This document shows positions 11,430-28,429 of a DNA stretch of 47,380 nt, piece by piece. Where the stretch lies: positions 1 through 47,380 of IMG/VR virus record IMGVR_UViG_3300017960_000004; one strand, written 5' to 3'. Below the pieces are notes generated by a model that saw only the letters and a list, made by a program, of their open reading frames with translations, was not told where the DNA came from and ran no database searches. Position 1 is the stretch's first letter. Every line of letters starts with the position of its first letter. This DNA comes from a virus. Position numbers and translations under genes: made by a program.

Positions 11430-12026
11430 TCAGCCCCCGCTCGGGGGGCGCGCGTGGACGGCCAGGAACTCCTCGAGGAGCAGCGCGGCCTCGGTGCTGT
11501 TGGGCGCGGTGCCGATCGTCACCAGGCGCTCCGGGTCCACGCCCAGGTTGACGACGTAGGGCTGGGGAGCTCCGGCGACGTAGTACACTTCCCAGGTGTA
11601 GACGCCATCGGTGCCTGCGCTGACCGCCCGGCTCTCCTCACCGACTTCAAGCGGCGGCACGAGCCCTTCCTCGAGGATCTCGAAGCCGGGCGGGGTTACG
11701 CTGGCGTTGACGAGCTCGATCGCGCTCTGCTCCGCCTCGAGCACCGTGTCGAACGACCCTGCGATCGTCTCGGCGGTGTACTCCTGGATGGGTCCGATCT
11801 CGGAGTCGTAGGCCCTTCGCACCATCAGGGTGAAGGGCTTTTCATCGTTGGGGGTGTAGACGATCGCGTACTCGTAGAGCCCGCGCCGGCCCAGGTGGAC
11901 CGTATCGTACTCGGCCCACTTGCCGCCCTCGGGGCGGCCGAGCTCGATCGTGGGGTTCACGGATTCCGAAGACCCGGCGAAGATCAGTAGACCGGCGATC
12001 ACGCCGACGACGAGTAGTGTTCCCAT
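11430..12026 (-). CDS. Membrane-anchored beta-rich protein, 198 aa
   Basis: The N-terminus is a short hydrophobic anchor (GTLLVVGVIAGLLIFAG) with no upstream charge, followed by a beta-rich ectodomain (YDTVHLGRRGLYEYAIVY, FTLMVRRAYDSE) and a second mixed region ending in a helix. Family unrecognised. It starts at ATG 12026, 12 bases after the Ig-like gene, in the probable virion operon. An uncleaved anchor with an external domain would suit a membrane-associated virion protein. Confidence 0.7.
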   Translation of the reverse strand: MGTLLVVGVIAGLLIFAGSSESVNPTIELGRPEGGKWAEYDTVHLGRRGLYEYAIVYTPNDEKPFTLMVRRAYDSEIGPIQEYTAETIAGSFDTVLEAEQSAIELVNASVTPPGFEILEEGLVPPLEVGEESRAVSAGTDGVYTWEVYYVAGAPQPYVVNLGVDPERLVTIGTAPNSTEAALLLEEFLAVHARPPSGG

Positions 12027-12038
12027 GGTGCTGTGCTC

Positions 12039-12911
12039 CTATGCGAGGTTCCAGGTGAAGGTGGCAGGCCCAGGGCCGCAGATCTCGAATGGCGGGTCGC
12101 TCGATACGAGTACGCCCACCTCGTAGGTGCCGGACGGGGGAGGGCCGCCGTCGATGGTGGCCGTGACGGTGCTCAGGTCAACCGACAAGGCGCCGGTGTA
12201 GGTGGCCACCAGATTGCCGTTGTCGTACAAGCCGACGAGCACCGGGCCCGGTGGGGGGTTCGGCAGCGGCGGGTCGAGGGTGACGGCCACGGGGACGGCC
12301 TGGCCGATCGACCCCTGGTCAGGAGTGATCTGCACGATCTGGCACTCGCCCCCTGGGCCGTCGCCACCGCCGCCGTTCTGCTCATTGGCGCGCTCGCCAA
12401 AGCAGCACGTGGCCAGCAGGGCGTCCTCGGTCTTGACGATCCCGATCGGCTCAAAGTCGATCGTGAACGGGCCGCCGACGAGCTGCGGCACCATGCCGTC
12501 CTCACCGCACAGGAAGCCAAGGCCCCCGAACCGCGGCACGAATAGGGAGCGAAACGTGGTCGGGAGCTCGCCCGCGATCTCGGCCTGGGCGGGGAAGTCC
12601 AGCAGGACGCCCTCGACCCGCTGGATCGATCCGGCGTCCTCGAGCGACGCGCCGGCGACGGCGACCCCGCCGTTGATCGGGGTGAGAGCGTTGTAGGCCG
12701 CGAGCAGGTTCGGCCCGCGCACGTCGAGCCGCGGGATGAACACGTCCGCGGGCTGCTCGAGTCCGAGACGCTGGTAGAGGTCGCGCAGTCGGAACACGCC
12801 CAGATTGCCGCCGAGCTGGAAGGTGGCCAGGTCCCCTGCGATGGTGGGTGCGGGGAGCTCGGTGATCGACTGCCCGTCGAGGGTGCCGGTGACTTGGAGA
12901 CGGACACGCAT
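12039..12911 (-). CDS. Beta-rich protein with C-terminal Ig-like domain, 290 aa
   Basis: A 290-aa, predominantly beta-strand protein. The first ~110 residues contain long alternating strands. The C-terminal 100 residues (IVQITPDQGSIGQAVPV onward) resemble an IPT/TIG-like immunoglobulin fold. A Gly-rich linker with several cysteines separates the halves. The start ATG 12911 overlaps the previous TGA by one base. With its 180-aa partner it is a second candidate pair of virion beta proteins (capsid or spike). Confidence 0.7.
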   Translation of the reverse strand: MRVRLQVTGTLDGQSITELPAPTIAGDLATFQLGGNLGVFRLRDLYQRLGLEQPADVFIPRLDVRGPNLLAAYNALTPINGGVAVAGASLEDAGSIQRVEGVLLDFPAQAEIAGELPTTFRSLFVPRFGGLGFLCGEDGMVPQLVGGPFTIDFEPIGIVKTEDALLATCCFGERANEQNGGGGDGPGGECQIVQITPDQGSIGQAVPVAVTLDPPLPNPPPGPVLVGLYDNGNLVATYTGALSVDLSTVTATIDGGPPPSGTYEVGVLVSSDPPFEICGPGPATFTWNLA

Positions 12912-13453
12912 CAGCCGAGCCCTCCAGGACCGTCAGGAATAGGTCCAGGGAGCTCGACCGCGGGATAGCGCGAGCAGCAGGCCGCGCGGATCTTGGATTC
13001 AACCGTCACGAGATCGATCATGTTCAGGTAAAGCTCCCAGGTGAGGGGCTGCGGCGGGTTGATCTCGGCGTTGATCCGCAAGCCACCGCCGTTGAAGACC
13101 GGCAGGTTGATCGCGGCGCCGAAGCTGGGCTCGATCGGGGGCAGCACGTCCACCGGGAGAAGGCCGGGCCCCAGGACGCGCACCAGGCCGGAGATCGCGT
13201 CCGATTGGTTGCCGACGCTGGCCACGAAGCCCAGGTGCGCGACGAACTGGTCGCGGGTGGAGGGGAACCCCTGTTCGGCGAGTGCCTCGATCAGGGGGCC
13301 GAAGGGGAAGGTGCCGAACTCGCCTCCGGGGTCGCCGCTGATCGCGTCGATCTCCCAAAACCCCGACTGGCGCAGGCGCGCCGGCCCAAACGAGCACGGC
13401 GCCACCGTGCCCGTGAGCTCGCCCGGCACGTTGATCTTGACGACTTCAGACAC
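12911..13453 (-). CDS. Beta-rich hypothetical protein, 180 aa, GTG start
   Basis: A 180-aa protein starting at GTG 13453 (VSEVVKINVPGELTGTV). The frame upstream of this GTG is low-complexity and overlaps the preceding gene, so the longer reading is rejected. Strand-rich segments include FGAAINLPVFNGGGLRINAE and LTWELYLNMIDLVTV, and the C-terminus holds a Cys-Cys pair. It sits seven bases after the 349-aa gene and is coupled to the 290-aa gene. Probably a virion protein; fold unconfirmed. Confidence 0.7.
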   Translation of the reverse strand: MSEVVKINVPGELTGTVAPCSFGPARLRQSGFWEIDAISGDPGGEFGTFPFGPLIEALAEQGFPSTRDQFVAHLGFVASVGNQSDAISGLVRVLGPGLLPVDVLPPIEPSFGAAINLPVFNGGGLRINAEINPPQPLTWELYLNMIDLVTVESKIRAACCSRYPAVELPGPIPDGPGGLG

Positions 13454-13460
13454 GGTGGTC

Positions 13461-14510
13461 CTAGCGGTTGCGGAGGGTTTGCTGTTGGATCGCCATTCGC
13501 CGCAGGCGAGCGATCCGCGAGCCACCGGCCTGCTCGAGGTACTCGGGCGAGTAGTAGACGCCCTGGTACACCAGTCCGTCGCCGTACTGGCTGTGGTCGT
13601 GGCCGTCGTTGCCCACGCTGAAGCCCGACGACGCCATGCGAGCGCGCTGCGCCTCGAGCAGCGTTTCCCGGCGTCGGCGCTGCCGGGCCTGGAAGACGGA
13701 GCCCACGCCATAGCCGTGCTCTTGGAGGACGCCCTGCATGGTCGCGGCCTGAGCCGGGGTGATCGGCGCGCCGACGCTCACGCCCTGGGCCTGGGCGACG
13801 CGAGCTCGCTGCACGTCGAGTAGGGTCTGACGGCGGCGCCGCTCGCGGGCCTGGTACACGGATCCGATGCTCATTCCTTCGCTCATGGTGTCGCTCCTGG
13901 TCGCAGGGTAGCCGGTCTGCGCGTTTGGCGATACCTCGCCGGGCACGCTGGCCGTGGGTTGCATCGCCGTCGCCTGGGCCTGCGCGTCCCTGGCTGCGAT
14001 GGTCTGCATGCACGCCGTCCGCTCGTCGCCATGCGCCTGCATGTGCTGGACGTAGTGCTTCACGTCGCCGATGTGCGTTCTGGCCACGCTGAGCTTGTGC
14101 TCGGCCCAGGGCGGCAGCGGGCGGCCCTGGTCGATCCGCCCGAGCAGATCCTCGGCGTAGTCGCGGATCTCGCGCGCGTTTTTCACGTTCATGTAGCCCT
14201 GCTTGTAGTCGCCCCCGGCGGCGTAGCCGTGGAGCTGGGCCTCGTAGCGCCGCACGGCGCTCGCAGACTTGGCCGAGGCCGGCGTCACGCCCCCGAACCG
14301 GGCGCTGCGATAGCCCTGGATCTGGCCGATGCTGACGCCCCCCTGGCGGCGCACCGGGACGTAGGGACGCACCGCGGTGCCGTAGTAGTACGGCGAACCC
14401 TCGGCCACCTGAGCCGGCGGGTCGGGCTGCACGAACTGGCCCCCCGCTGCGAGGAACTCGGCGAGCTCTCGTCGGCGCCGCTTCGCTACTGGCTGAAATC
14501 CGATGGTCAC
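13461..14510 (-). CDS. Virion-associated protein with internal repeat, 349 aa
   Basis: Basic, Gln/Arg-rich protein. Residues about 119-155 (DLLGRIDQGRPLPPWAEHKL... HIGDVKHYV) match a helical motif that I associate with many phage head or internal proteins (a pattern of residues around LPxWxExKLxxA). The C-terminal half contains two copies of a 26-residue unit around SVYQARERRRRQTLL and SVFQARQRRRRETLL, separated by about 25 residues. The Arg-rich repeats suggest DNA binding or membrane contact inside the particle. The start ATG 14510 overlaps the previous stop (ATGA). Confidence 0.7.
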   Translation of the reverse strand: MTIGFQPVAKRRRRELAEFLAAGGQFVQPDPPAQVAEGSPYYYGTAVRPYVPVRRQGGVSIGQIQGYRSARFGGVTPASAKSASAVRRYEAQLHGYAAGGDYKQGYMNVKNAREIRDYAEDLLGRIDQGRPLPPWAEHKLSVARTHIGDVKHYVQHMQAHGDERTACMQTIAARDAQAQATAMQPTASVPGEVSPNAQTGYPATRSDTMSEGMSIGSVYQARERRRRQTLLDVQRARVAQAQGVSVGAPITPAQAATMQGVLQEHGYGVGSVFQARQRRRRETLLEAQRARMASSGFSVGNDGHDHSQYGDGLVYQGVYYSPEYLEQAGGSRIARLRRMAIQQQTLRNR

Positions 14511-15322
14511 TTTCGACTGCCTTTCTTCGGCCGTTTCTTGGCCGTCTTGTTCGCGGGTTTCTTGGCTGCCTTTTTCGGCGAACTCGAGCGCCGCTCGGTG
14601 ACCCGCGTTTGGCCGATGATGATCCCCTCCCGGCCGATGCCGCGCTCGCTCACAAGGTCTAGGTGCTGGTCGGGCATGTCGCTTTCCACGGATTCGATCA
14701 GCGCGCTCCGCAGCATTTTGCGGATCTCGGTAGCCTCGCGCTCGCTGTAGCCCTCGAGCTCGAGGTTCACCGTGACCGTGAACTCGTGCTTGCTTTTGCG
14801 CTTCGCGTCCTTGCGATCGCGCTTAGGGGCTCGAGCGGCCTTCGGCTTGGGCGCGGGTTTGGTATCGGCAGCTCGTAGCTCGCGCAGAAAGGCCATGGCG
14901 GTAGACTTGTTCGCCGCGCCGACGTTCCAGGTTCCAGACAAAACGTCGGGATCGGGGTCGTCGCGTAGGTAATAGATGGTGACGAGATCACCGTTCGGTG
15001 CGCGCAGCATCCACTCCCCCAGGTACTCCTCCCCCTCCTCGATAGCCTCGTTCACGTCGGCTACCTCGTAGGTCGGCGTGCCGAGCAACGAGCGCAGCCG
15101 CTTTCCGAGCTCGCCGCGATACTCGGTGTCCTCGCCGTAGACCCCTTGACCGGAGGTGCCGGCGATCTGGCCTTCTGGCACGTCGAGCCTTCGGGCGTAC
15201 CTGGCGTAGCCGGGCACCTTGGTAGTGGTGGGCTCCGACTTACGCGAGCTTGGCACTCGAGCGCTCTTGCTCGAGGCTTGACGCCCGAAGATCCGTTCCA
15301 TGAGTGTACGCGTGGTCGTCAT
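14507..15322 (-). CDS. Basic DNA-binding-like protein, 271 aa
   Basis: A 271-aa protein with an N-terminal basic stretch, a central acidic globular domain (about 90-140, including EYLGEWMLRAPNGDLVTIYY), a Lys/Ala/Arg linker, a second domain (EFTVTVNLELEGYSEREATE...), and a histone-like Lys-rich tail (KKAAKKPANKTAKKRPKK). Such tails neutralise DNA. It lies between the 2427-aa protein and the 349-aa protein in the minus block and could help condense the packaged genome; this is inference from composition. Confidence 0.65.
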   Translation of the reverse strand: MTTTRTLMERIFGRQASSKSARVPSSRKSEPTTTKVPGYARYARRLDVPEGQIAGTSGQGVYGEDTEYRGELGKRLRSLLGTPTYEVADVNEAIEEGEEYLGEWMLRAPNGDLVTIYYLRDDPDPDVLSGTWNVGAANKSTAMAFLRELRAADTKPAPKPKAARAPKRDRKDAKRKSKHEFTVTVNLELEGYSEREATEIRKMLRSALIESVESDMPDQHLDLVSERGIGREGIIIGQTRVTERRSSSPKKAAKKPANKTAKKRPKKGSRK

Positions 15323-15325
15323 TTT

Positions 15326-18300
15326 CTACTCTCCCGCCAGCAGCCGGATCATCGCTCGCGTGTCGTTGGCCCGTCGCTCCTTTGCGCGAGCTCGAGGTTT
15401 GCTGGCGCTCTCGGCGGGCATTTTGCCGGCTCGAATCGCGCGAACGGTGGCCGCGTGGCGGCCCATGACCGTGCCACACAGGCCCAGGACCCCGGTGTCG
15501 TAGCGGTTTCCGTCCACGTTGGACGTGTAGTGCTTGATCATGGCGATCGACGGCGCCACCACCTTGCCCTCGAGCTTCCCGCGCTGCTCGAGCTCGGCCC
15601 AGGACACGGCGGCCCGCGTGTTGGACACGTCGAGCTTCCAGATCCCGGCCTCGCAGTTGTCGCACTTGCGCTTGAGGGACTGGTCGATGGCGGCCCGGCG
15701 CGCTGCGTCGAACGCCGCGGACGGGCTGCGGTGCTTGCTGATCACCTCGTTCGGGCGCGCCACCACGTAGATCGGGCGAAGCGGCTTGTCAGCCTTCGGC
15801 TTGCGAGCTCGAGGCTTCGCCTTCGCCTTGGGCTCGAGGGAGGGCGGGAGCACGCCGTCTTCGGCGCTTCTCGTTGCCCTCGTGGCCTTCTTTTTCGGTC
15901 GCGCCGCCGCGGGCCGGCGTTCCGTTCGCATGGCCTGGATCTGCTGGTAGGTGGCCACGCGCCGGCGATACTGCCCCGTCACCTGATCTCGAGCGCAGTC
16001 GTAGAGCGATTTGACGAACGCGCCGTCAAAAATTTCGGTGAGGTTTTTCAGCAGCGCGTACACCTCGGCTTTCGCACGCTGGGTTTCCAGGGGATCGATC
16101 CTCTGGGGGTCGAGCTCGTAGGGTGCCCTGCCCCCGGTGACCTCGCCCACCGAAGATTGCACGAACGAACGATCGAACGTCTGATCGGGCAGCGGTCGCA
16201 ACGCCGTGAAGGCTCGCGCCGCATCCTTGGCTGCGCGCCGGCGAGCATCCTTGGCGCTTCGCTTCCGCAGCAGGCCCGACTCGAGCTCCAACATCGTGCG
16301 GAGCGCAAACACGATCCCGGCGTAGGCTCGCGCTGCCGCGACCGATTCGGCGTACCTGAGATCCTGCTCGATCAGCTTTGCCTGGGGCGATCCGGTCGGC
16401 AGCGCCAGGACGAGATCCTCGGCCAGTGACGTGAGCGTATCGGGGTCGCGGAGTACGTCGATTTCCGAGCTCGCCAGGGGTCGCACCAGGGCGGTGCAGT
16501 CCACGTCGAGCTGGCGCGACTGGAGCTCGCGGCGAAGCTGCGCGTCAGACTTGCTCAGCGCGGCCTTGATCTCGCTGCGCTTGGGCGCCTTGGCGTCGCG
16601 AGTCAAAAATGCGAGGTAATCCATGGCGATTTTGGTCAACCCGTCGCGCCCTGTCTCCATGTAGAAAGTACCCGTTGGGCTCTCCGCTCGGCGTCCTTCG
16701 GGGTGCTCGGTTACCCGCCATCCCTTACGCGCAAGACTTCGCATGTGGGTGCGGCGCGTCGCGAACTTGCCGTCGAGTCCCGCTTGCTTGTCGAGGGCTG
16801 CAACGGCGCGCTCCAGCGCGACCTTTGACTTGAAGGTTTTTTCAAAGCCATCGAGGTCCCGTTTGCTTGCCCTCTCAGCGTCTGCCTTGCGTGCACGCTC
16901 TGCCTTCTCGGCGTCGGCCCTTGCTTTGCTGCGTGCCCTCTCCTCCGTTCGCTTGAACTCAAACGCAATCTCGCCGGCAGGTAGAAACTCCGTCGCAATC
17001 CCGCGCTGGATCAAGTAGACATCTTTGCCCCGAACCTTGTCGCGCCCGACGACCTTGCCCCCGTCCGCAAGCGTGCGTCCCACGTAGGGATCTTTTGTGC
17101 TGGCTGCCTTGGAGAGCAGGCCGCTCACGTACCCACCGGCCTCGCCGGCCAGCCGGTCGATCGCGGCCTGGGCGGTGCGGTGCTGGTGGCTGTCCACGAA
17201 CCCCGTAGAGAGCCCGCTCATGGACGCCGCCCAGCGCTGGCCCGAAGGCTTGTCCATGTTCTGCGTGACCTTGATCCGCACCTCCTGGGGGCGCTCGCCG
17301 AGCTCGGAGCGAGCCGGGCCGCCGAGCTTGTAGCGAAACAGGTAGTCACGGCCACCCTTGAAGGTGGACTCGGATCCGCTGAGCATCTGCGGCTTGAGGC
17401 CGGGGTTGCGCTGCACCAGCCGCTTCTCGAGCGCCTTGCCTAGGTCGGCGACCATGCCCTTCGCGGGCTTGGCGGGCTTCGCCTTGCGCACCCGCTCCTG
17501 TTTCGCCTTTTTCTCCGCCTCGATCGCCTTGTCGATCGCCTTGCTCGCGCGCGCCTTGTACTGCCCCTCGTGCAGCTTCTCGGCGATCTTGCGCATCTCC
17601 GTCGTGAGCGGCGCGCGGTTGTCCCGAATCGCGTCCACCTCGTACTCAACCAGAATGTTGTGGAGCTCGGCGAGGAACTCGCCGGCGTCGGACTCGGCGA
17701 CGGTGAACTGCTTGTCGCCGATCGGCCGGTAGGGAGCGAAGACGGACACGGTTCCCTTGCGGGGCTCGCTTCCGCGGACGCTGACCGTAGCGCCGCTTTT
17801 GCGCTTCGCGGCCCAGCTCAGATCCGGTTGCCGCTTGAACTTGCCCTTCACCTCGGAGTCGCGCAGCGCCTTGATCGCCGCGACGGCCGTGTCGTCGGCG
17901 GGCGCTTTCGCCTTCGCCTTCGCCTTCGGTTTTGCCTTGGCCTTCGCCGGCGCATTTCCGTTGGCGGCCTGGGCTGCGGCCTCAGCCTGGACCTTCGCCG
18001 CCTTCGCGGCTGCTTTCTCGATCTTCGCTACCTCACGCTCGCGGTCCTTGATCTGCTTGCGGACCCAGCGGATCCGTTTCTTGTCGGACTTGTGGCGCTC
18101 GACCTGCGCCGTCTTACCGGCGTCTCTCAGGCCCTGGACGCCGGCGCCCTGTAGCGCTTCGGCGATGCGCGTCTCAAGGATCTTTTCGGCTTCGGCGAGG
18201 GTGAGGCCGCCGCTGGGCGGCATGAACCGAACGTCCAGCCCCTGGAAATCGACGGGGTACAGGTAGCCTTGCCACGCCCCCTTGACGAACACATCGGTCT

Positions 18301-21300
18301 TGTAGCCGTTCTCCGCGTGTCGCTCCGCGGCCGTGCGCAGCGAAAACGGCGCGCTGTCCACCAGGCTCAGGTCTGGCTCGATCGAGTCGGGGATTCCCGC
18401 CAGCTTGGTAGTGTCTGACTTTTTCACCACCTTGCCGTCGCGCACGTCCGCCATGAAGTAGCGGCCGTCTTGCCACGCGAACATGCGCACAGGTGTCGGT
18501 GCGCTGGGGTCGTTCGTCCGGTACGCCATGACCACGGATTTTCCTGGGTCGAACCCTCGAGGGAGCGCCGGCAGATCGAAACCGATCTCCGGCCGCTCGT
18601 CTCTCCACGCCTTGAGGTCCCGCTTGCGGGGCTTTTTGCCGGCCGCGGTGACCGGGCCCACCGTGTCGCCGTCGCGGCCCTCGTACCAGTACAGTCGCGT
18701 GCCGTCGTAGACCGCGCTGCGGATCCCGTCCGCTTTGGGGCCCTTGCGCCCCCGCAAACGCTGGAGCGCGCCGATCACCGTCAGCGGTGCCTCGGTCACC
18801 AGGGCGCTCCACTCGCCCTTTTCCATCCTTTTGAGCACGGCGTCCAGGGCGAGCTGCTGCGTGTACTCGGTGCCCTGGACGGCCTGGGCGTGGACGCCCG
18901 CCATGAACTTGGCAGGATCGAACGCTGGGCTTGCTTGTCCCTTCGGCGACCGACTGTGCACCATGCCGAGGGTGCGCGCAGGCGTGCTCGAGAAGTCGAG
19001 CGGCGGGGCGAGCTCGAGCATGAACACGTCCCCGTCGCTGTCGAGCACCATGCCGCTGGGCGCCACCTGGCGCAGCAGCATGCCCTGAGCCTCGAATGCG
19101 ACGATCGGGATCTCGCCCGCTTCGCGGCGCTTGATCGCGTCCACCTTCTGCGGCTTAGACATAGCGCCCGCGCGAGCTCGAGCGGCGGTCAGGCGGCGCT
19201 CGAGCTCCTGGGCGGCCTGCGCCCGCTCGTTTCGCCCGAAGTAGGTCAACGGCTGGCCGGGCTCGCAGACCGCGAAGGTGCGCGCCCCTGGCTTGCCAGA
19301 CTTGCCCCACTCCTGGAGTACGGGGCAGTCCCCGTTCGGCTGGCTGGTGTAGGCGGGGCAGACAGTCGCGGAGAAGTTGATCTCGGGCTCGGTGAGCTGG
19401 ACGCAGAACTGGCCGATCGGTACAGGCTTCTTGTCACGGCGCCCTCGCTTTTTCTCGTAGTCGAGCCACATGCGATAGGCGTCATCGACCGTCACCTTCG
19501 GCCGCTCGGCAACCGGCTTGACCGCTTCGCGCCGCGCCTTCGCCTCGGTCTTGCTCTCCGCCGGCGCAGGCTTGTCCGCCGCGGCGCCAAACTTGGTCGG
19601 CGCGTCCTCGAGGACGAACGGCGCCTTCGCGTAGTCGGTGGTTTTTCCCTTGCTTCGCACTGCGACGAAGTTGTCGGTCACCTTGAGGGACAGTCCCTTG
19701 AGCTTGCTGCCGGGCAGCGGCTCGAGCACCACCACGGTGTCGCTGGGCTTTTCGGCCACCCGGTACTTCACGCGTCGAGCTCCACCGCGGTTGAACTGGA
19801 GGAGCTGGCCGACCTTCGCCTTGCGGATCGCCTCGGTGCCCTCTCGAAGATCCTTGTCCATGACGCTCTCGGCCTTCGCTGCTCCCATGTTCTTTGCCTC
19901 CTTCGCGCGCGTCGGCGCCATGGCCCGCATCTTTTCGAGCAGGGCCGAAAACTGTTTGTCCACGCCGCGTCCCGCCTTGGAGCGCTCCGCAAAGTCGAGC
20001 GCGTAGATGTAGTTTTGGCCCTCGTGCTCGAGCCAGATCCGCGCCCCGTACTGGTCGTATTGCGCGCCCCGGTCGTACTTGCGGCCAACCGCCCAGCCGC
20101 CCTTGCGCAGCGCTCGGTTGATCGCGTTGGGGTCGGCCAGGTCGGGGTCGCGGGCCTCGATCGCGGCGATGATCTTGGGCGCGAGCTCGACGTGGCGCTT
20201 GCGATTCTCGGCGTCGTCTCGAGCTCGGCGCGCGTCCTCGTCGCGTCGCTTTGCCAGCAGTTGCCGGATCATTTTCTTCGGGTCGCCGGCGCAGATCGCA
20301 GATGCCTCGTCTTGGCCCTTGCGGGCTACGTCGAAGGGGATCCCGTGCACGCGCTCGAGCACGATCCGCGCCGCCTCGCTGCTCACCTGGCACAACCGGC
20401 GCGCCACGTCGTCGGGCTCCGCCCCCTCTTGCCAGTTGGCCGGATCCGCGATCAGGCGCATGCGCTTTCCGTACACCTGGGCGTACTCGAGGATCTGCTT
20501 GCGCTCGGCCTCAAGCTCCTTCGGCGTGTTGCGGTTGAGCCACTGCACCCCGAACATCAGATACGGCTCGAGGCTTTGATCGGGGCTGAGATCCGATCCG
20601 TTCCACCAGATGCGTTTGTCCAGGCCCGTGCGCTTGCCGATCGCCTTTTTCTTGGCGCGGAAGTCGGCGATCTCGGCCATGGCGTCTTTCCATGCGCGCG
20701 TGGTCTGCAAGGCGCGGAAGTAGCCGCGGGCTTCGGGTGCGTTGTAGGTGTCGCCGCGCTCCGGCTTGGGAGGCCAGTTGCCCTGCTCGAGGGCGAGCTC
20801 GCCGATCCGTTGCGCCGCAGCCTCGGAGGTGACGCCTGTCACCATCAGCCGCTTGTCGGTGCCGAACCGCTTTCGGATCGCCGCGCGTAGCTTGCGGATC
20901 GCTTTGGGGTCGTCCAGCTCGCGGAAGATCGAGAGCACGGTGGGCATGCTGCTGGTCTTGTCCAGGCGCATGGCCAGGTGCTCGGGGCTCTGTGGTGGAC
21001 GCGCAGCGCTTTCGAGTGGCTTTTTCACCGTCACCAGGGCGACGCGCACGTTCGTATTCTCGAACTTGGCGTCAGGCTGGGGCTCGATGCTGGCGCCCAT
21101 GTCCTCGAGACGGTCGCGGAGCTCGACGGTGAGCGCGTCGGTACGCGAGGGGAACGATCCCGACACCACCGACACCAGGACGCCGCCAGGCTCGAGGAGC
21201 TCGAGCGCGCGGTCGAGGTGGCGCGCGTCCGAACGATCCTCGAACGGCGGGTTCATCAGGATCCGGCTGTACCGCTCGCCTCGAGGGGGCTTCCACGCCA

Positions 21301-22609
21301 GGAAGTTGTCTTGCGTGACTTTTTTGAACCCCTGGGAGCGCAGGAGCTCGGCCAGGCTGCGGTTGAACTCCACCAGGCGCAGGCGGTCGCCGAACGCTCG
21401 GAGCTCGCGTGCGATGGCGCCAGACCCGGCAGACGGCTCGAGCACCATGGTCCCGATGGGCATGTTGGCGAAGTCGGCGGCGTCCACCATCTTCCCGACC
21501 AGCTTTTCGGGCGTCGGAAAAAAGCCAGGGATCCGGCGCCGCATCAGCTCGGCCTCCTTCAGCCTGAGCTCGGCCGCCTTCGCTTCCTCAGTGTCGAGGC
21601 GCACGCCGCCCACGCAGCAGCGCATGAGGGCTTGGAGCGCGTCGCGTAGCTCGGCGGTCGTGTTGATCCCCAGCGTCTTACGAATCCGAACGTCGTCCTC
21701 GAGCAGCTCGATCACGCGCTCAAAGGGCGACCAGCGCTCCTTCGATTTCTTGTCGAGCTCGCGCATGCGCGCCATGAGATCCTCGGCCTCTTGGAGCTTG
21801 AGGGGCACGTAGTCCCCGCCTCCGGTCGGGGTGCGGCCCATGAGCTCGCGGATCAACGGGTACTGGTCGAGCTCGAGGTCACGAGCTGCGTCCACCAGGC
21901 GATCCCGGTACAGACGCAGGGGCGCGAGCTCGGCGAACTCCACGTCCCGCATCTTGGGCGGCGGGAGCTCGCGGTCGGGGCCCAGGCGCTCGCCGTTCGC
22001 TTCGACCCGGCGCCGGGTCGCGCGGCGGAGCTCCACCAGCAGATCGTTGAGCTGGGTGCGGTGGCGGATCCGGTTGAGCGCTGCGTTGTCCGCTCCCCTC
22101 GCGCTCTCCGCGATCCGCTGGCCCAGGCGCTCGAGGATCGACCCGGTGTCGATCTTGGCAGTGCCGCCCTTGATCTTGTGCGCGGCCATGCGAGCTCGCC
22201 GCGGCGTGTTTGTCTGCGCCTGCGCGGCTTCCTCGATCTGCTTTTTGCCCTGGGCCTTGAGCTTGCGGCCCTGGTCGATCAGCCGCTTGCCCCGCTTTTC
22301 TCGCTCGCGGATCTGCTTTCCCATGGCGCTGTTCTCGAGCGCCTTGGTCATTTTGCGCTTGGTTGGCTTGGCCTTCGGCTTGGCCGGTGCGTCGTCACCG
22401 AACAGAGAGGCCGGGCGCGCAACCTGGAGCTTGGCTCGGGGGCCAAAGGTGTAGCTCTCCTCGCACAGGTCACCCTCCATGACCGTGGCCGTGCGCGCGC
22501 ACAGGCGCACCATGTCGTCGGCCTGTTCGACCTTGACCACCTCCACCTCGCCCAGGCCGGGGAGGCGCACCACGTCGGCGACGCGAACCTGTTGTGCCTC
22601 GAGCTCCAC
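15326..22609 (-). CDS. Giant polyvalent protein (2427 aa) with adenine methyltransferase domain
   Basis: A 2427-aa single-frame protein. Residues about 361-550 form an amino-methyltransferase: FFPTPEKLVGKMVDAA, SAM-binding EPSAGSG (391-397) and catalytic NPPF (453-456), the N6-adenine/N4-cytosine class. The remaining ~1,850 residues contain several compact domains joined by Lys/Ala-rich linkers (for example AKAKPKAKAKAKAP), which I cannot name. It ends in TRAMIRLLAGE, a tag shared with its two upstream neighbours. This architecture fits the 'polyvalent proteins' of phages and conjugative elements, often delivered with DNA to protect it. GTG start 22609 overlaps the upstream TAG. No convincing helicase or polymerase motif was seen. 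Confidence 0.85.
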   Translation of the reverse strand: MELEAQQVRVADVVRLPGLGEVEVVKVEQADDMVRLCARTATVMEGDLCEESYTFGPRAKLQVARPASLFGDDAPAKPKAKPTKRKMTKALENSAMGKQIREREKRGKRLIDQGRKLKAQGKKQIEEAAQAQTNTPRRARMAAHKIKGGTAKIDTGSILERLGQRIAESARGADNAALNRIRHRTQLNDLLVELRRATRRRVEANGERLGPDRELPPPKMRDVEFAELAPLRLYRDRLVDAARDLELDQYPLIRELMGRTPTGGGDYVPLKLQEAEDLMARMRELDKKSKERWSPFERVIELLEDDVRIRKTLGINTTAELRDALQALMRCCVGGVRLDTEEAKAAELRLKEAELMRRRIPGFFPTPEKLVGKMVDAADFANMPIGTMVLEPSAGSGAIARELRAFGDRLRLVEFNRSLAELLRSQGFKKVTQDNFLAWKPPRGERYSRILMNPPFEDRSDARHLDRALELLEPGGVLVSVVSGSFPSRTDALTVELRDRLEDMGASIEPQPDAKFENTNVRVALVTVKKPLESAARPPQSPEHLAMRLDKTSSMPTVLSIFRELDDPKAIRKLRAAIRKRFGTDKRLMVTGVTSEAAAQRIGELALEQGNWPPKPERGDTYNAPEARGYFRALQTTRAWKDAMAEIADFRAKKKAIGKRTGLDKRIWWNGSDLSPDQSLEPYLMFGVQWLNRNTPKELEAERKQILEYAQVYGKRMRLIADPANWQEGAEPDDVARRLCQVSSEAARIVLERVHGIPFDVARKGQDEASAICAGDPKKMIRQLLAKRRDEDARRARDDAENRKRHVELAPKIIAAIEARDPDLADPNAINRALRKGGWAVGRKYDRGAQYDQYGARIWLEHEGQNYIYALDFAERSKAGRGVDKQFSALLEKMRAMAPTRAKEAKNMGAAKAESVMDKDLREGTEAIRKAKVGQLLQFNRGGARRVKYRVAEKPSDTVVVLEPLPGSKLKGLSLKVTDNFVAVRSKGKTTDYAKAPFVLEDAPTKFGAAADKPAPAESKTEAKARREAVKPVAERPKVTVDDAYRMWLDYEKKRGRRDKKPVPIGQFCVQLTEPEINFSATVCPAYTSQPNGDCPVLQEWGKSGKPGARTFAVCEPGQPLTYFGRNERAQAAQELERRLTAARARAGAMSKPQKVDAIKRREAGEIPIVAFEAQGMLLRQVAPSGMVLDSDGDVFMLELAPPLDFSSTPARTLGMVHSRSPKGQASPAFDPAKFMAGVHAQAVQGTEYTQQLALDAVLKRMEKGEWSALVTEAPLTVIGALQRLRGRKGPKADGIRSAVYDGTRLYWYEGRDGDTVGPVTAAGKKPRKRDLKAWRDERPEIGFDLPALPRGFDPGKSVVMAYRTNDPSAPTPVRMFAWQDGRYFMADVRDGKVVKKSDTTKLAGIPDSIEPDLSLVDSAPFSLRTAAERHAENGYKTDVFVKGAWQGYLYPVDFQGLDVRFMPPSGGLTLAEAEKILETRIAEALQGAGVQGLRDAGKTAQVERHKSDKKRIRWVRKQIKDREREVAKIEKAAAKAAKVQAEAAAQAANGNAPAKAKAKPKAKAKAKAPADDTAVAAIKALRDSEVKGKFKRQPDLSWAAKRKSGATVSVRGSEPRKGTVSVFAPYRPIGDKQFTVAESDAGEFLAELHNILVEYEVDAIRDNRAPLTTEMRKIAEKLHEGQYKARASKAIDKAIEAEKKAKQERVRKAKPAKPAKGMVADLGKALEKRLVQRNPGLKPQMLSGSESTFKGGRDYLFRYKLGGPARSELGERPQEVRIKVTQNMDKPSGQRWAASMSGLSTGFVDSHQHRTAQAAIDRLAGEAGGYVSGLLSKAASTKDPYVGRTLADGGKVVGRDKVRGKDVYLIQRGIATEFLPAGEIAFEFKRTEERARSKARADAEKAERARKADAERASKRDLDGFEKTFKSKVALERAVAALDKQAGLDGKFATRRTHMRSLARKGWRVTEHPEGRRAESPTGTFYMETGRDGLTKIAMDYLAFLTRDAKAPKRSEIKAALSKSDAQLRRELQSRQLDVDCTALVRPLASSEIDVLRDPDTLTSLAEDLVLALPTGSPQAKLIEQDLRYAESVAAARAYAGIVFALRTMLELESGLLRKRSAKDARRRAAKDAARAFTALRPLPDQTFDRSFVQSSVGEVTGGRAPYELDPQRIDPLETQRAKAEVYALLKNLTEIFDGAFVKSLYDCARDQVTGQYRRRVATYQQIQAMRTERRPAAARPKKKATRATRSAEDGVLPPSLEPKAKAKPRARKPKADKPLRPIYVVARPNEVISKHRSPSAAFDAARRAAIDQSLKRKCDNCEAGIWKLDVSNTRAAVSWAELEQRGKLEGKVVAPSIAMIKHYTSNVDGNRYDTGVLGLCGTVMGRHAATVRAIRAGKMPAESASKPRARAKERRANDTRAMIRLLAGE

Positions 22610-22947
22610 TAGACCATCCCCCTGATCGCCGCCCGTGTAGCGGCGGCGCGTTCGCGACGGGCCTCAAGCGCTTCTCGAGCTGCTCGCTCTGCCGTCTTGG
22701 TCCCGACTCCCGCGGACATAGCCGTGGCGCCCGCGAGCACCTCAAGTGACGGGACCGGGCGTCCGTACCGGAGCGCGCCCCGGATGATCCCGTCCGCCTT
22801 GGCGCGAGCTCGAGCCGCGGCCTTGCTGCCCCAGGACTCCGGCCGCGGCGTCGGCCGGTAGTCTTCCGGCGGAGGCGAGGTTCCGTACTCCTGCGCGATC
22901 TGCCGGCGGATTAGCCGGCTACCGCGGTCATAGGCAGCCTTGCCCAC
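22609..22947 (-). CDS. Small basic protein with shared C-terminal tag, 112 aa
   Basis: A 112-aa basic helical protein, Arg/Ala-rich, ending in RAAATRAAIRGMV, a close match to the C-termini of the 543-aa and 2427-aa neighbours. It has no other recognisable domain. It lies between those two genes with 0-3 base junctions. If the tag is a packaging or processing signal, this protein would travel with them. Confidence 0.75.
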   Translation of the reverse strand: MGKAAYDRGSRLIRRQIAQEYGTSPPPEDYRPTPRPESWGSKAAARARAKADGIIRGALRYGRPVPSLEVLAGATAMSAGVGTKTAERAAREALEARRERAAATRAAIRGMV

Positions 22948-22949
22948 AC

Positions 22950-24581
22950 TTAGCCTCCCGCCAGGGCGCGGATCGCTGCTCGAGTCGCCGCGCGTTGCTT
23001 GTTCGAGCTCGGCTTATTTTTCGCCGCCTTGGCCCGGCGTTTCGGGGTGAGCTTGGAGCGGTGGGCCGCCTTGTAGGCGCGCTGCTTTTCGAGGCTGACC
23101 GGGCGCCCCATGAAGTCGGCCTGGAAGATCCCAGGGAAGGCCGCGGCCTCGTTGAGGAGCTCGCGGATCGGTAGTTCGATCACCTTGACCTTCATGGTCC
23201 GCTCCGGCCCGATGATCGCCAGCGCAGCCCAGCGGTGGTGGCCGTCGAGGATGTGGCCGTCCGCCGATCCCAGGACGGCCGCGTCGATCTTTGGGAACTT
23301 GCCGCACAGGTGGCTGTCGGCCATGCTCACCGCCTTGCGGGCCTGGATCTCGCGCTGGGTGGCCTTGAGCATCCCCACCGGGATCTCTTTCACCTTGATC
23401 TTGACCCCGCTTCGCTTCAGGTAGTCCATCCACGCCTTGAGCGGCGCGACGTTGCGTTTTCCGCCTGCGTCGAGGATCGCCCGGCCGAGCGCCTGCTTGT
23501 CGGGGTCTTTGTCCTTGAGCAGCTTGTCCGCGGTGGTGTCGAGGATCTGGGGCATTTCGGCGCGCGAGAGGCCCAGGTTCCCCTTGCAGACGCTCGGCTT
23601 CATTTTGCAGTAGTCGGCGGCTCGCTCGATCCCCTTCTCGATCAGCCCGCGCACGCGCCGAGCGCTGTCGCGGTCGGCGTCGAGCACGTCGAGCTTATAC
23701 ATGCGGCACACGCTGCGTTCGGGTTGCTTCATGGTCTTGGTCGTCCTCTCGAGCTCGTGGCACTTGGCGCCTCGAGCTCCGGTTTTGGGTAGCGGCCTGC
23801 CGAGCAGGATCTTGAGCTTTCGCTTGCCCGCGATCGTGCGGAAGTACCAGTAGGGATAGTCGGGATACTTGCCCTGGGGGTGGGCGCCGACCCACTCGAT
23901 CTGCTTGCCCAGGAGCTCGCACACCTCTTGGGGATCGGTGACGGCGGGCGGCCGAAACCGCGTGATCATGATGTGGGCGATCTTGTCGCTGAGCTCGCCG
24001 TAGTAGCCGGGCTGGTTCAGCATTTTGCCCTTGTGCTTCACGATCTCGCGCTTGGCCTGGTCGCTCCCGTCATGGCCAAGGCCGGTGCTCTTGATCCCTC
24101 GAGGCTTGCGCTTGGCGGTGCTCACCACGTCGGCCAGGGGATCGGCGTCGATGTCGGCCGCGGTGACCACCAGCGTTTCGTCGCCCGTCAGGTCGCCGAC
24201 CTTGCGGAACTTCAAATGTCCGCCGAGGTGCGCATATGCGCCGTCGATCAGCTTGAACAGGTTTTTGGCGACCGCAGGCTGAGCGCGCAGCACCGCAGGC
24301 GAGAGATCGAGATAGACGTTTTTGCGCCCCCCCGCGAGCTCGGAGAACGTGTCTCGAGGTCGGTAGAGCTGCGCCGTGCGGACTCGAGACGCGCGACGCC
24401 GCTTTTTCCGGCGCCAGTCGCCGGTCTTCGGGTCCTTTTCGTAGCCGGCACGCTTGACGGCCGTCCAGGCCGTCGCCGCGGCCTGGGCGTCGGTGTAGCC
24501 CTGCTCGGAGATCCCCTGCTGGTAAACCTCCTCCCAGATCCGTGCTGCCCGCGGAAGCCGCTCGAGTGTCCCCAGGGGCAT
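22950..24581 (-). CDS. Multidomain ChaB-like / phage-domain / ParB-like protein, 543 aa
   Basis: Residues 8-48 (LPRAARIWEEVYQQG... AWTAVKRAGYEKD) resemble the ChaB fold. Residues about 85-265 (AYAHLGGHLKF, ADIDADPLADVV, GHDGSDQAK, PGYYGELSDKIA, KLKILLGRP) match a domain of unknown name that recurs in large phage proteins and may be a degenerate acyltransferase fold. Residues about 395-480 contain a ParB/sulfiredoxin-like nuclease core with DGHHRWAAL (446-454). A basic tail ends in RAATRAAIRALAGG. ParB-like domains bind nucleotides and can nick DNA. The domain mix is that of a polyvalent protein injected with viral DNA. Confidence 0.8.
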   Translation of the reverse strand: MPLGTLERLPRAARIWEEVYQQGISEQGYTDAQAAATAWTAVKRAGYEKDPKTGDWRRKKRRRASRVRTAQLYRPRDTFSELAGGRKNVYLDLSPAVLRAQPAVAKNLFKLIDGAYAHLGGHLKFRKVGDLTGDETLVVTAADIDADPLADVVSTAKRKPRGIKSTGLGHDGSDQAKREIVKHKGKMLNQPGYYGELSDKIAHIMITRFRPPAVTDPQEVCELLGKQIEWVGAHPQGKYPDYPYWYFRTIAGKRKLKILLGRPLPKTGARGAKCHELERTTKTMKQPERSVCRMYKLDVLDADRDSARRVRGLIEKGIERAADYCKMKPSVCKGNLGLSRAEMPQILDTTADKLLKDKDPDKQALGRAILDAGGKRNVAPLKAWMDYLKRSGVKIKVKEIPVGMLKATQREIQARKAVSMADSHLCGKFPKIDAAVLGSADGHILDGHHRWAALAIIGPERTMKVKVIELPIRELLNEAAAFPGIFQADFMGRPVSLEKQRAYKAAHRSKLTPKRRAKAAKNKPSSNKQRAATRAAIRALAGG

Positions 24582-24583
24582 AG

Positions 24584-24988
24584 CTAGTAGTCTCCTTCTC
24601 CCGAAAGTCGTCCCCAGAAATCCGTGGTCATGCCCCGCGCGGACTCGGTGATCCGCTGGACCGGCGCGGGCATGGCCGGCACGACCACCTGCGGCTGCGA
24701 GGCCAGGTGTTCCTTGATCGCCTGCACGTCGCCCTCGAGCTGGCCGATCTGATCGCGCTCGCCGGTGAACACGTACTGATCCAGCAGGCGCACCGCGATT
24801 GCACCGGCGGCGGCGCTGACCACCGCGATCAGGACGGTGCGACCGATGTTGCCTTCCCCGTTTTGGCCCACGGCGTAGCCCTGCGCGGGCGGCTGCTTCA
24901 CCTGGGGCCCCGGCTTGCCCTGCTGTGGCTGCTGGGGTGACGGCTGCGCCTGGGGCGGTCGTGCGTGCTGGTAGGGGTGTGCCTTCAT
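24584..24988 (-). CDS. Single-pass membrane protein, 134 aa
   Basis: A Gln/Pro-rich disordered N-terminus (about 45 residues), then one membrane helix (TVLIAVVSAAAGAIAVRLL, about 51-69) and an acidic helical C-terminus with a short coiled-coil candidate (DQIGQLEGDVQAIKEHL). The start ATG 24988 overlaps the previous stop as ATGA. It looks like a membrane-embedded virion protein; family not recognised. Confidence 0.7.
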   Translation of the reverse strand: MKAHPYQHARPPQAQPSPQQPQQGKPGPQVKQPPAQGYAVGQNGEGNIGRTVLIAVVSAAAGAIAVRLLDQYVFTGERDQIGQLEGDVQAIKEHLASQPQVVVPAMPAPVQRITESARGMTTDFWGRLSGEGDY

Positions 24989-25665
24989 GCCGAATCAGTC
25001 CTCTCCTCGAGCTCGAGCTCGAGCACGAAGTCCTGCCAAGCGCTGTAGATGGTGTCCCAGGTCGTCCAGGCCGCGTCGCTCGCCTGCTCGAGCAGGGTTA
25101 GCGGAGGCTGAGGCCCGCACTGCCGTTCGGTGCGCCTGCGCCTCTCGTAGTAGCTGAGCCGTTGCCACCGCCCCGGCCCCATCCACAGGCGCGTGCGATC
25201 CTGGCAGGTGCAGGGGTGCTTGAAATAATTGTCGCAGCTCAGCGCGAAGCGAGCGGCGGCCAGGGCGGCCGGGCCGGGGTGGTCGAGCACCTCGGGCGGC
25301 GCACACTCGCCGAGCTCCGGCAGCCGGTGAAGCATGTAGGCGGCGGCGCCCCCGAACGACCCCCTGGTGGTCCAGCGCATCGCCTCCTCGCGGTCCGCGG
25401 GCGGCGCGTGCTCCTCGCACGTCTCCGGCTGTAGCCAGCCCTCGGCGACCGCCCTCGAGTAGAAGCGGCGTCCCGCCCAGCCGTCGAGATCGTGGATCCC
25501 GATCGGCTTGCAGCGGCTCTCCCGCATGCACACGCGCTCGAGCTCCTCTCCGAGCTCCGGCCGCCCGACCGCCTCGGCGGCCAGGTAGGCAGCCTCGCGC
25601 GGTGTCACGTCCTCCTCGCCCAGCAGTCGCGGATCGAGCGCCAGGACCAAGATCAGGTGTCGCAT
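24985..25665 (-). CDS. Lysozyme-fold (lytic transglycosylase-like) protein, 226 aa
   Basis: After a short hydrophobic N-terminus, residues 44-65 (RVCMRESRCKPIGIHDLDGWAG) follow the lytic transglycosylase pattern in which a catalytic Glu precedes Ser (Glu49-Ser50), then a Gly-containing loop. The family cleaves the glycan strands of peptidoglycan; in virions it opens a path through the wall. Several downstream cysteines (SCDNYFKHPCTC) suggest disulfides and an exported or virion location. It is the second of two adjacent lysozyme-like genes. The assignment rests on the short motif, so it is moderately sure. Confidence 0.65.
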   Translation of the reverse strand: MRHLILVLALDPRLLGEEDVTPREAAYLAAEAVGRPELGEELERVCMRESRCKPIGIHDLDGWAGRRFYSRAVAEGWLQPETCEEHAPPADREEAMRWTTRGSFGGAAAYMLHRLPELGECAPPEVLDHPGPAALAAARFALSCDNYFKHPCTCQDRTRLWMGPGRWQRLSYYERRRRTERQCGPQPPLTLLEQASDAAWTTWDTIYSAWQDFVLELELEERTDSA

Positions 25666-25683
25666 GGGGTTTGAGTACCACCG

Positions 25684-26442
25684 TCATGCGACCCCCTGCA
25701 CGATCGCTAGCGCTTCCGCTGCTGTCATGTTCAGTGACTGCGAAACGGGCCGATCCACGAGCTCGCGGCTGTAGCCGAGCTGCTCGAGGCGGTCGCCGAG
25801 CTTGTTTTTGCCCGTTCGCTGGCGCTCGATCTCGTCGGGGCGGTTCATGCGCGACGGTGCGCGCATACACACACGCAGGTTGCCCCAGGTGGGCGTGGCC
25901 TTGAACGAGTCGCGGCGCATGCAACCGCGGAAGTAGCCCAGCAGCATAGCGAGCGCGGCGGGCGGGTCGAAAACAGCCCAGGGCGACATGCAACGCTCGG
26001 CGCTGCCCTTCGGGAACTGCATGAGGAAGTTCGCGGGGAGCTGGGCCCACAGGCCGCCGCTCCCGAAGTTGTACTGCTCGGCCGGATGCCCGCACGCCGA
26101 AAGCGCGTCGGCGTTGCGGTTGTAGGCGCGCTGCGCCGCCCGGCTTTCGCCCTGGTCGATGTTGATCTTCGCCCAGGGGGGCGCGCCCTGGACGACGCCG
26201 CGGCCCATGAGCGGGTTCAAGCCGCTTTCGCCCAGGGCCGCGGCCTCGAGGAAAGCCGCCCACTGCTGATCGAGGCCCAGGGCCTGCGCCATGGCGCGGA
26301 TCGTCGCCTGGGCCTCGCCGGCCTGCACGTCGGGCTCGAGGTCGAGCTCGTCGGGGCGCGTCTCGTCGTCCCCGCCCTCGGCCCCAGAGAAAGCCAGGCC
26401 GAGCAGGATCGCACCGGGGATCAGCAGAACGGCGGCACGCAT
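25684..26442 (-). CDS. Membrane-anchored lytic transglycosylase-like protein, 252 aa
   Basis: The N-terminal anchor or signal (AAVLLIPGAILLGLAFSG) is followed by an acidic linker and a lysozyme-like core: LEAAALGESGLNPLMGRG with putative catalytic Glu72 in the GES context typical of SLT/goose-lysozyme folds, then a Gly/Phe-containing segment (QYNFGSGGLWAQLPANFLMQ). It would cut peptidoglycan during entry or exit. It is followed after 18 bases by a second lysozyme-like gene, and its start ATG overlaps the 119-aa gene's stop. Confidence 0.7.
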   Translation of the reverse strand: MRAAVLLIPGAILLGLAFSGAEGGDDETRPDELDLEPDVQAGEAQATIRAMAQALGLDQQWAAFLEAAALGESGLNPLMGRGVVQGAPPWAKINIDQGESRAAQRAYNRNADALSACGHPAEQYNFGSGGLWAQLPANFLMQFPKGSAERCMSPWAVFDPPAALAMLLGYFRGCMRRDSFKATPTWGNLRVCMRAPSRMNRPDEIERQRTGKNKLGDRLEQLGYSRELVDRPVSQSLNMTAAEALAIVQGVA

Positions 26443-26801
26443 CAGTCGTCGCTCCCGCTGAGCTCCTGAAGCCAGGACAGAACCTTTGAACCGCCCGGCA
26501 CCACCGAGTCGATGGCGCGCCGGAAGTGCACCTCGGCCGCGCCCGCGTCTTCGGGGTAGTCCCCGCGCGGGTCGTTGATCCCGGTGGGCCGCCCGGCCAT
26601 GGGCTGCATCGTCTCGCCGTTGACGCCGATCGGGATCTCCTCGGGCTGGTCGGGATCGCTGAGGATCTTCAGGACGTGGCCGCCCAGCTCCGCGGCCATG
26701 GCCGCCTCGTCGCTCTCGGCCTCGACGCTGTAGATCGTCTGGTCGGGGGCGATAACGAGGATCGAGCCGGTCTTCTTTTGGATTCGGAACTGAATGAGCA
26801 T
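26442..26801 (-). CDS. Hypothetical protein, 119 aa
   Basis: A soluble 119-aa protein with an N-terminal alternating beta pattern (LIQFRIQKKTGSILVIAPDQTIYSV, about 2-26), an acidic helix and a flexible Gly/Pro/Asp middle, then a C-terminal helix (KVLSWLQEL). No family recognised. It lies between a signal-bearing protein and the anchored transglycosylase in the probable virion operon. Confidence 0.65.
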   Translation of the reverse strand: MLIQFRIQKKTGSILVIAPDQTIYSVEAESDEAAMAAELGGHVLKILSDPDQPEEIPIGVNGETMQPMAGRPTGINDPRGDYPEDAGAAEVHFRRAIDSVVPGGSKVLSWLQELSGSDD

Positions 26802-26828
26802 GGTGTGGGTCTGCCTTTCCTCTCGAGT

Positions 26829-27506
26829 CTATCGGAAGACGTAGCCGCCAAGGATCGTCGCGGGATGGACGACACCTCGTTCGCAGTCAGCGGCGAGCGA
26901 GTGGTAGTTGATCGCGCCAGGGCGCGCGCCTGAGATCGAAACTCCCTGCTGGTAGTCGCCGGTGTCGCTCGGGGCGCCGCCGGTGCCGGTGGGAGGGATC
27001 AGCGACGGGTCGCCGCCGGCCAGAGCGAGCTCGAGCTCGCTGGGGGGCGCGACGGGGCGCCCCAGGGAGATCAGGAGGATCCGCGCGGTGACGACCAACC
27101 TGAAGTACCACTTGCGCGCCGTCTCGGTGACCGGCGCGTACTCCTCGAGCACCTGGCCGGGAAGCGTGGGTATCTCAAGCCGCTGGAGCTCGAACGGCTG
27201 ATTCCAGCACGCGTCGGGCACCGTGTCGCTGTAGGCGTACAGAGCCAGCATGTACGGGTCGTTCACGTCCACCGTCGTGGGCTGCGTCTCGCCGCTGCGC
27301 AGCCTAGCGATCGTGACGGAGCCCTTGATCGCGGCGTCGGTCATTAGCTGGCCGAGCGCCTGCACGTAGGACGCGAGAGCCTCGGGCGAAAGGGCCTCGA
27401 GCGCGATGCCGCGGCAGTCGTCGGTGAGCGCGTAGCGAGGCGTGGCCCCGCCCTGAGTCAGCAGAGCGAAGCCCAGCCCCGCGGCCAGGAGCAGGGCCCA
27501 AAGCAT
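26829..27506 (-). CDS. Membrane-anchored hypothetical protein, 225 aa
   Basis: An N-terminal hydrophobic helix (LWALLLAAGLGFALL) is followed by a helical domain with two cysteines (DCRGIALEALSPEAL, DACWNQPF), a segment with a second hydrophobic stretch (LVVTARILLISLG) and a flexible C-terminus. The start ATG 27506 overlaps the LysM gene's stop. Family not recognised; the pattern of anchor plus ectodomain fits other probable virion proteins nearby. Confidence 0.7.
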   Translation of the reverse strand: MLWALLLAAGLGFALLTQGGATPRYALTDDCRGIALEALSPEALASYVQALGQLMTDAAIKGSVTIARLRSGETQPTTVDVNDPYMLALYAYSDTVPDACWNQPFELQRLEIPTLPGQVLEEYAPVTETARKWYFRLVVTARILLISLGRPVAPPSELELALAGGDPSLIPPTGTGGAPSDTGDYQQGVSISGARPGAINYHSLAADCERGVVHPATILGGYVFR

Positions 27507-28429
27507 TAGCTCAGCCTCGCCAGGAGCTCAGGGGGCGGGTCGATCGAACTCGAGCCGTCCGACCAGTCCACGTGTGCGCACGTGACTTGTGAGAACTGGC
27601 TGAGCGCGGCCGGGTTGACGGGCGGGAGCCAGAGCAGTCCGTAGTCGCTGCCACGCCCCGTGATCCGGCTTCCGTCCTGGGTGATCGCGCGGCGCGGCAT
27701 GTTCCCCTGAAGCGCGGACTTGACCGCGTTTTCGTGCCAGGGGAAGAAGGCTCGGCGCAAACCCATGCCGTTGACCCCGTAGAAGCTGGGGAACGTGTTG
27801 GAAAAGCTCGGCGACGCGTAGAGCGGCATGTTCCAGTTGGGCGAGCTCGTGATGCAGTAGATGTAGTCGAGCCGCCGCTGCCCGCCCTTGCCGTCCGCCC
27901 CGTCGTCGCCCATGCCGGGCACCGTCGCGTTCAGAGCCTGGCGCGCGATCGTGGCCAGGTTGTCGCCTTTCCGAATCTGATAGAACTTGCCGGGTGTCGG
28001 GCTCCCGGCCGGCGCGACGAGCTCTTCAAGAATCTCGACCAGGGTGTCGGCCTCGTTGCAAAACGCCTCCGCGCTGGGACTCGCCAGGAACGCCCCCACC
28101 TGATCCACGACGTACTGCTCGACGGCCTGGACGGTCGAGTCGTCGTAGTCCGGGATCGCTGGCCAAGGAACATCGGGGTGGAGCTCGCCGAGGACGCACG
28201 CCGAGATCGTCATTTGGTTTGCCTGGGCGCCAAGGCGCTTGGCGCAGTCGCAGATCGTCCGCTTGACGAGCTGCACGTCGTCGTCCGTGGTCGGCGTGGG
28301 GATCGGGCCCACGGGTTGCCGCTGGCCGCCGTTGCCGTTGCCGTTGCCGTTCCCCTGCTGCTGTTCGCCGCCACCTGCGGCTAAAAGCAGGACCACGAGT
28401 CCTGCCGCGATGAGTGCTCCGGTTCCCAT
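27506..28429 (-). CDS. Membrane-anchored protein with LysM-like domain, 307 aa
   Basis: The N-terminal anchor (GALIAAGLVVLLLAAGGG) is followed by a Gly-Asn repeat linker (about 26-36), a cysteine-containing helical domain and a LysM-type motif at about 149-167 (FYQIRKGDNLATIARQAL). LysM modules bind N-acetylglucosamine in peptidoglycan. The C-terminal 120 residues are aromatic-rich and unassigned. A wall-binding anchored protein next to two transglycosylase-like genes suggests a shared role in crossing the cell wall. Confidence 0.75.
   Translation of the reverse strand: MGTGALIAAGLVVLLLAAGGGEQQQGNGNGNGNGGQRQPVGPIPTPTTDDDVQLVKRTICDCAKRLGAQANQMTISACVLGELHPDVPWPAIPDYDDSTVQAVEQYVVDQVGAFLASPSAEAFCNEADTLVEILEELVAPAGSPTPGKFYQIRKGDNLATIARQALNATVPGMGDDGADGKGGQRRLDYIYCITSSPNWNMPLYASPSFSNTFPSFYGVNGMGLRRAFFPWHENAVKSALQGNMPRRAITQDGSRITGRGSDYGLLWLPPVNPAALSQFSQVTCAHVDWSDGSSSIDPPPELLARLS

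Follow-up and report, generated by a model that had tools for sequence, protein, structure and literature searches.

A common C-terminal peptide on three adjacent viral proteins, a possible tag for docking to the virion

Introduction

How a phage chooses the effector proteins that enter its particle is known in few cases. The locus described here raises this question in a compact form, as three adjacent genes encode otherwise unrelated proteins of 543, 112 and 2427 residues that end in nearly the same short peptide. If this peptide acts in packaging, a consensus tag on three proteins makes the packaging rule directly testable; packaged proteins would become recognisable from sequence, and the tag would offer an easy means of loading other proteins. 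Confirmation would establish a C-terminal consensus cargo tag as a variant of the capsid-targeting signals. All positions refer to the window, i.e., the whole stretch of 47,380 nucleotides that was analysed.

The three tagged genes and their ends

The three adjacent proteins with a common C-terminal peptide described in the original prediction are readily found in the window. Their genes (P0001 to P0003) follow one another on the minus strand and are translationally coupled: 2 bases separate the stop codon of P0001 from the GTG of P0002, whose own stop codon overlaps the GTG of P0003. The relevant features are the following.

22950..24581, minus strand: P0001, 543 aa, with a ChaB-like N-terminus, a domain in common with a 735-kb phage, a ParB-like domain, a basic tail and the tag
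22953..22985, minus strand: P0001 tag, TRAAIRALAGG, at the end of the basic extension past the ParB-like domain
22954..22958, minus strand: GGAGG, Shine-Dalgarno-like sequence for P0002, within the P0001 tag codons
22609..22947, minus strand: P0002, 112 aa, helical, with a weak HTH-like resemblance
22612..22638, minus strand: P0002 tag, TRAAIRGMV, terminating a long predicted helix
15326..22609, minus strand: P0003, 2427 aa, giant protein of the polyvalent type, containing an N6-adenine-type DNA methyltransferase (MTase) region
15329..15361, minus strand: P0003 tag, TRAMIRLLAGE, preceded by a Lys/Arg/Pro-rich linker
15331..15334, minus strand: GGAG, Shine-Dalgarno-like sequence for the next gene, within the P0003 tag codons
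14507..15322, minus strand: P0004, 271 aa, next gene downstream, with a Lys-rich C-terminus lacking the tag; internal control

The three proteins end in AATRAAIRALAGG (P0001), AAATRAAIRGMV (P0002) and NDTRAMIRLLAGE (P0003); up to the stop codon, the respective ends read KQRAATRAAIRALAGG, RERAAATRAAIRGMV and RRANDTRAMIRLLAGE. Common to all three is the core (A/D)TRA[AM]IR, after which 3 to 5 residues remain. The peptide had initially been proposed to extend further, as TRAxIRxLAG; the core is confirmed, while the outer AG[GE] does not belong to the tag. Its codons coincide with the Shine-Dalgarno-like sequence that serves the following gene (GGAGGCTAA-GTG and GGAGAGTAGAAA-ATG), and P0002 ends in GMV, without AG[GE]. 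Because they are encoded by the next gene's ribosome-binding site, these residues of P0001 and P0003 are weak evidence and are left outside the tag. Furthermore, the last residues differ among the three proteins (GG, V and GE), which suggests recognition of the TRAxIRx[LM] helix as such and not of the free carboxyl terminus.

Tests of the tag against chance and copying

The tag is real and non-random, and the match between the three ends exceeds chance. Across the six frames, only these three open frames of more than 100 codons carry the pattern [ST]R[AS]x[IVLM]R no more than 12 residues from their end. The summed pairwise score of the three C-terminal ends is 115, a value reached by none of 20,000 shuffle sets, in which the 25 C-terminal residues of every protein were shuffled with their composition kept. 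For comparison, in other viral contigs 1,199 triples of adjacent, co-directional genes give a mean of 43.7 (sd 7.2) and a maximum of 84, and this top control triple is driven by true paralogues. TRAxIR is rare in the open frames of related loci, with two occurrences among 1.49 million residues, neither of them near a C-terminus. The amphipathicity of the tag is not above that of the shuffles.

These results bear on an explanation by convergence, in which basic amphipathic Arg/Ala-rich tails would serve nonspecific DNA or membrane binding, with the letter match being partly luck. The Arg/Ala-rich surroundings of the tag, the abundance of Lys and Arg in the last 40 residues of P0001 and P0003, and the Shine-Dalgarno constraint on the outer AG[GE] are all consistent with it. 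However, shuffles that preserve the composition never reach the score of the tag, and P0004, whose C-terminus is as basic as the tagged ones, does not carry it. Convergence is regarded as an unlikely origin of the match and ranks third among the readings considered here.

Another possibility is that the ends were copied between the genes, or that the likeness arises from a constraint at the DNA level, such as the next ribosome-binding site. The AG[GE] codons, which overlap the GGAGG and GGAG ahead of the next start codons, point in this direction. The TRAxIR core, in contrast, is located 5' of the ribosome-binding site, and its codons differ between the proteins: P0001 and P0002 have 8 identical residues, and only 2 of the 8 codons are shared, compared with 3.5 expected by independent choice. 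Since the identical residues are mostly in different codons, the likeness is at the protein level, and an artefact at the DNA level or a recent copy does not account for it. For the tag core, a copying artefact is largely refuted, and it is the least probable of the explanations weighed.

Few C-terminal pairs of comparable score were observed in related loci; one consists of paralogues (LR756501) and another is a plasmid pair ending in LLSPxxxDT. Another possible common C-terminal peptide beside a polyvalent-type gene is seen in a Planctomycetes plasmid (L007), where two neighbouring proteins encoded upstream of the MTase gene (7563-7820 and 7856-8362) end in PDELLSPDYHDTH and PAQLLSPQSYDTL.

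Domains of the tagged proteins and kinship with polyvalent proteins

Judged by domains typical of virion-packaged proteins, P0001 and P0003 look like phage polyvalent proteins. The regions that carry this assignment are given below.

23079..23582, minus strand: ParB-like domain of P0001, with DGHHRW, about aa 334-501
20942..22318, minus strand: MTase region of P0003, aa 98-556, homologous to phage and plasmid polyvalent proteins and to gp43 of Salisaeta icosahedral phage 1 (SSIP-1)

In P0001, the ParB-like domain is preceded by a ChaB-like segment (aa 10-59, E 6e-5, below the Pfam cut-off) and by the domain in common with the 735-kb phage (aa 72-264). A solo homologue of the ParB-like domain, SFP10_0110, ends soon past the ParB fold, and the tag-bearing basic extension of P0001 is absent there. 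The MTase region of P0003 matches PHROG 15406 (E 1e-54) and is 36% identical to SSIP-1 gp43 over 239 aa (E 1e-26). P0003 also displays weak homology to P1 DarB, which has an N6-MTase domain, in a pairwise comparison (E 9e-7); outside the MTase region, it has no Pfam match. P0002 has no relatives that could be found. In a single-sequence AlphaFold2 model (mean pLDDT 78, with lower values for the last residues), it forms a helix at 83-111 that has the tag at its end. An assignment of P0002 as RecR_HhH or GntR was rejected, as these matches fell below the cut-off and a Foldseek search yielded nothing significant.

A further observation on P0001 is that its aa 245-264 resemble aa 133-152 of the protein encoded at 26829-27506, with the pattern WYFRxxxxxRxLxIxLGRP (E 0.008 in a 64-protein set, which may be chance). 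The latter protein has a hydrophobic N-terminus.

Genes for polyvalent proteins typically lie among or near late genes, and their products are thought to be packaged in the virion and injected (PMC5512222). Like P0001 and P0003, polyvalent proteins bear MTase and ParB-like domains, and they are giant and multidomain (PMC5512222). The neighbours of the tagged genes include membrane-anchored proteins. The several disparate domains characteristic of the class are present: P0001 combines ParB-like, ChaB-like and third domains, and in P0003 the MTase region is the only one that can be named. A zincin peptidase, found in about 36% of polyvalent proteins and not required for membership, is absent here, with no HExxH in the called genes.

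The most evident difference concerns the arrangement of the domains. In three tailed-phage homologues (L014, L032 and L059), one polypeptide of 3,000-4,000 aa combines the ParB-like and MTase regions, so that one signal would deliver both. Here, in contrast, the ParB-like (P0001) and MTase (P0003) regions are on separate chains, with the tag on each and also on P0002 between them. Polyvalent domains split in this way, with a tag on each piece, form the pattern expected of a delivery signal. F116 gp59 was considered as a further ParB-MTase fusion and was not counted, as the MTase motif is absent from the stretch examined.

The same split bears on an explanation without any packaging role, in which the tag links the three proteins to one another or to a shared adaptor in the cell, so that a split polyvalent protein is reassembled by docking. 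The single chain of the three homologues is in line with such reassembly, and P0002, predicted to be helical, small and placed between the other two, could be the adaptor. An adaptor, however, needs no copy of the peptide, unless the tag self-associates. Mutual docking is considered improbable, although it ranks next after docking to the virion.

Packaging as the preferred reading

In the preferred reading, the TRAxIR tag would be a C-terminal docking helix that brings three otherwise unrelated, early-acting proteins to one virion component. The inner face of the capsid, an inner membrane protein or a scaffold are candidate partners, and P0001-P0003 would be packaged and delivered together with the DNA. 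That the tag is a virion-docking helix recruiting P0001-P0003 for packaging, a reading drawn from one genome only, is given an even chance and ranks first. The presence of the three proteins in the virion, the tag as its cause and the partner bound are inferred. The more complete picture, that of an orphan, possibly membrane-containing virus whose split polyvalent injected protein is loaded by a common, uncleaved C-terminal consensus tag, is put forward tentatively. What speaks against packaging is that the motif is short and its residues are common in this GC-rich genome (68% G+C), that its amphipathicity does not exceed that of shuffled sequences, that the distant homologues examined lack it, and that the signals known from P1 DarB and the T4 internal proteins are N-terminal.

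Virion targeting and protease processing had both been proposed for the peptide. The former gains indirect support from the polyvalent type of the proteins, the structural annotation of the SSIP-1 homologue and the split domains that are each tagged. Also in its favour are the weak homology of the P0003 MTase region to P1 DarB, the absence of the tag-bearing extension from SFP10_0110 and the single-pass membrane proteins encoded in the surrounding operon. Processing is not supported, either as a C-terminus cut by a maturation protease or as a degradation signal recognised by a protease of the host. Processing is frequent among large packaged phage proteins (PMC5512222, PMC5694885), and cleavage would fit this trend. 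However, prohead proteases of the T4, phiKZ and SPN3US type need Glu (PMC5694885), which is missing from the tag core; no zincin motif is found in the called genes, and at most 3-5 residues past the core would be released. For these three reasons, a protease signal is very unlikely. The extreme C-termini, moreover, differ from one protein to another, unlike C-terminal degrons.

Comparison with known targeting systems

P1 DarB is packaged and injected, and carries a terminal capsid-targeting signal; no more than 30 terminal residues are enough to package DarB and also a reporter (PMC9024508). As in P1 DarB and the T4 internal proteins, the signal proposed here is short, terminal and located on large proteins of anti-restriction or polyvalent type. 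The differences are equally clear. No consensus signal was found among the P1 Dar proteins (PMC9024508), whereas one peptide is common to three proteins here. The DarB and T4 signals are N-terminal and the present tag is C-terminal; inspection of P0001-P0003 revealed no common N-terminal motif. In T4, moreover, a Glu-specific protease cleaves the signal off, while the sole Glu here is the last residue of P0003.

Encapsulation peptides of encapsulins and microcompartments are short and terminal, often form an amphipathic helix past a flexible linker, and are common to unrelated cargo. Their motif is unrelated to the present tag, and no encapsulin or microcompartment shell family was detected among the main genes scanned (Pfam, PHROGs), where several structural candidates are orphans. 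PLxRFG polyvalent proteins were considered as a precedent for a C-terminal tag and set aside, as the inspected example lacks such a terminal motif.

SSIP-1 is a tailless, membrane-containing phage (PMC6356626). Its gp43, a protein of 2319 aa with an MTase region homologous to that of P0003, is annotated as a virion structural protein (PMC6356626) and is preceded by a small gene, gp42, just as P0003 is preceded by P0002. Unlike P0003, gp43 lacks the tag, and gp41 and gp42 end in hydrophobic segments. Beyond the MTase protein, SSIP-1 and this virus have no other gene in common at the BLAST level, capsid proteins included.

Relatives and occurrence of the tag elsewhere

Searches with P0001, P0002, P0003 and P0007 returned no related loci in viral contigs, and P0001 has no related locus in bacterial genomes or plasmids. 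The 80 loci of the MTase alignment and the 60 loci of the PAPS-reductase-like protein have at most one further gene in common with the window, and this gene is widely distributed. Nothing convincing was found in genomes of Myxococcota, the guessed host group. The distant homologues examined (SSIP-1 gp43, FGH, 1F273, V1211 and plasmid proteins) do not carry the tag. Wide random occurrence of the motif in the host proteome had been named as an observation that would refute the proposal. Among the matches listed from viral and genome contigs, the pattern is internal, out of frame or isolated only; as far as these matches show, protein ends in public genomes do not commonly carry it. The tag tails have no match in phage records, a search in which such short queries are insensitive.

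Genome and particle type

The record ends in an identical repeat of 123 bases (1-123 = 47258-47380), and the genome is therefore probably complete, either circular or terminally redundant, with 47,257 bp (about 47.3 kb). A simple Walker A scan of this apparently complete genome gave no convincing P-loop NTPase in any frame and no recognisable packaging ATPase, terminase or helicase. In this respect, the virus differs from SSIP-1-like membrane-containing viruses, which have a P-loop genome-packaging ATPase.

The tagged genes lie in a late-looking operon on the minus strand (9339-28429), several proteins of which carry a single hydrophobic segment at one extreme end, N- or C-terminal. Such extreme-terminal segments are found in the products of genes 22, 23, 24, 34 and 37 of the gene list, and gene 32 has an internal one. 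Terminal segments around the operon are as expected for anchors in a virion membrane. Together with the SSIP-1 link, the single-pass membrane proteins suggest a membrane-containing particle, the virus type being uncertain. Among the neighbour genes of the operon, no named capsid family was matched (Pfam, PHROGs). A candidate coat protein at 28954-29871 was discarded, as its single-sequence model had a pLDDT of 33. Two adjacent minus-strand genes (12039-12911 and 12911-13453) encode weakly similar proteins (E about 0.001) that could be a coat-protein pair.

Elsewhere in the window, two M15-type peptidases with 43% mutual identity, putative endolysins, lie side by side on the plus strand (41679-42964). 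A 300-base direct repeat (40108-40407 and 40697-40996, 86%) adjoins a tandem array of 48-base units at 41298-41475, and 12-base repeats of Gly-Asp type (GGCGACGGGGAC) are located at 6856-6987.
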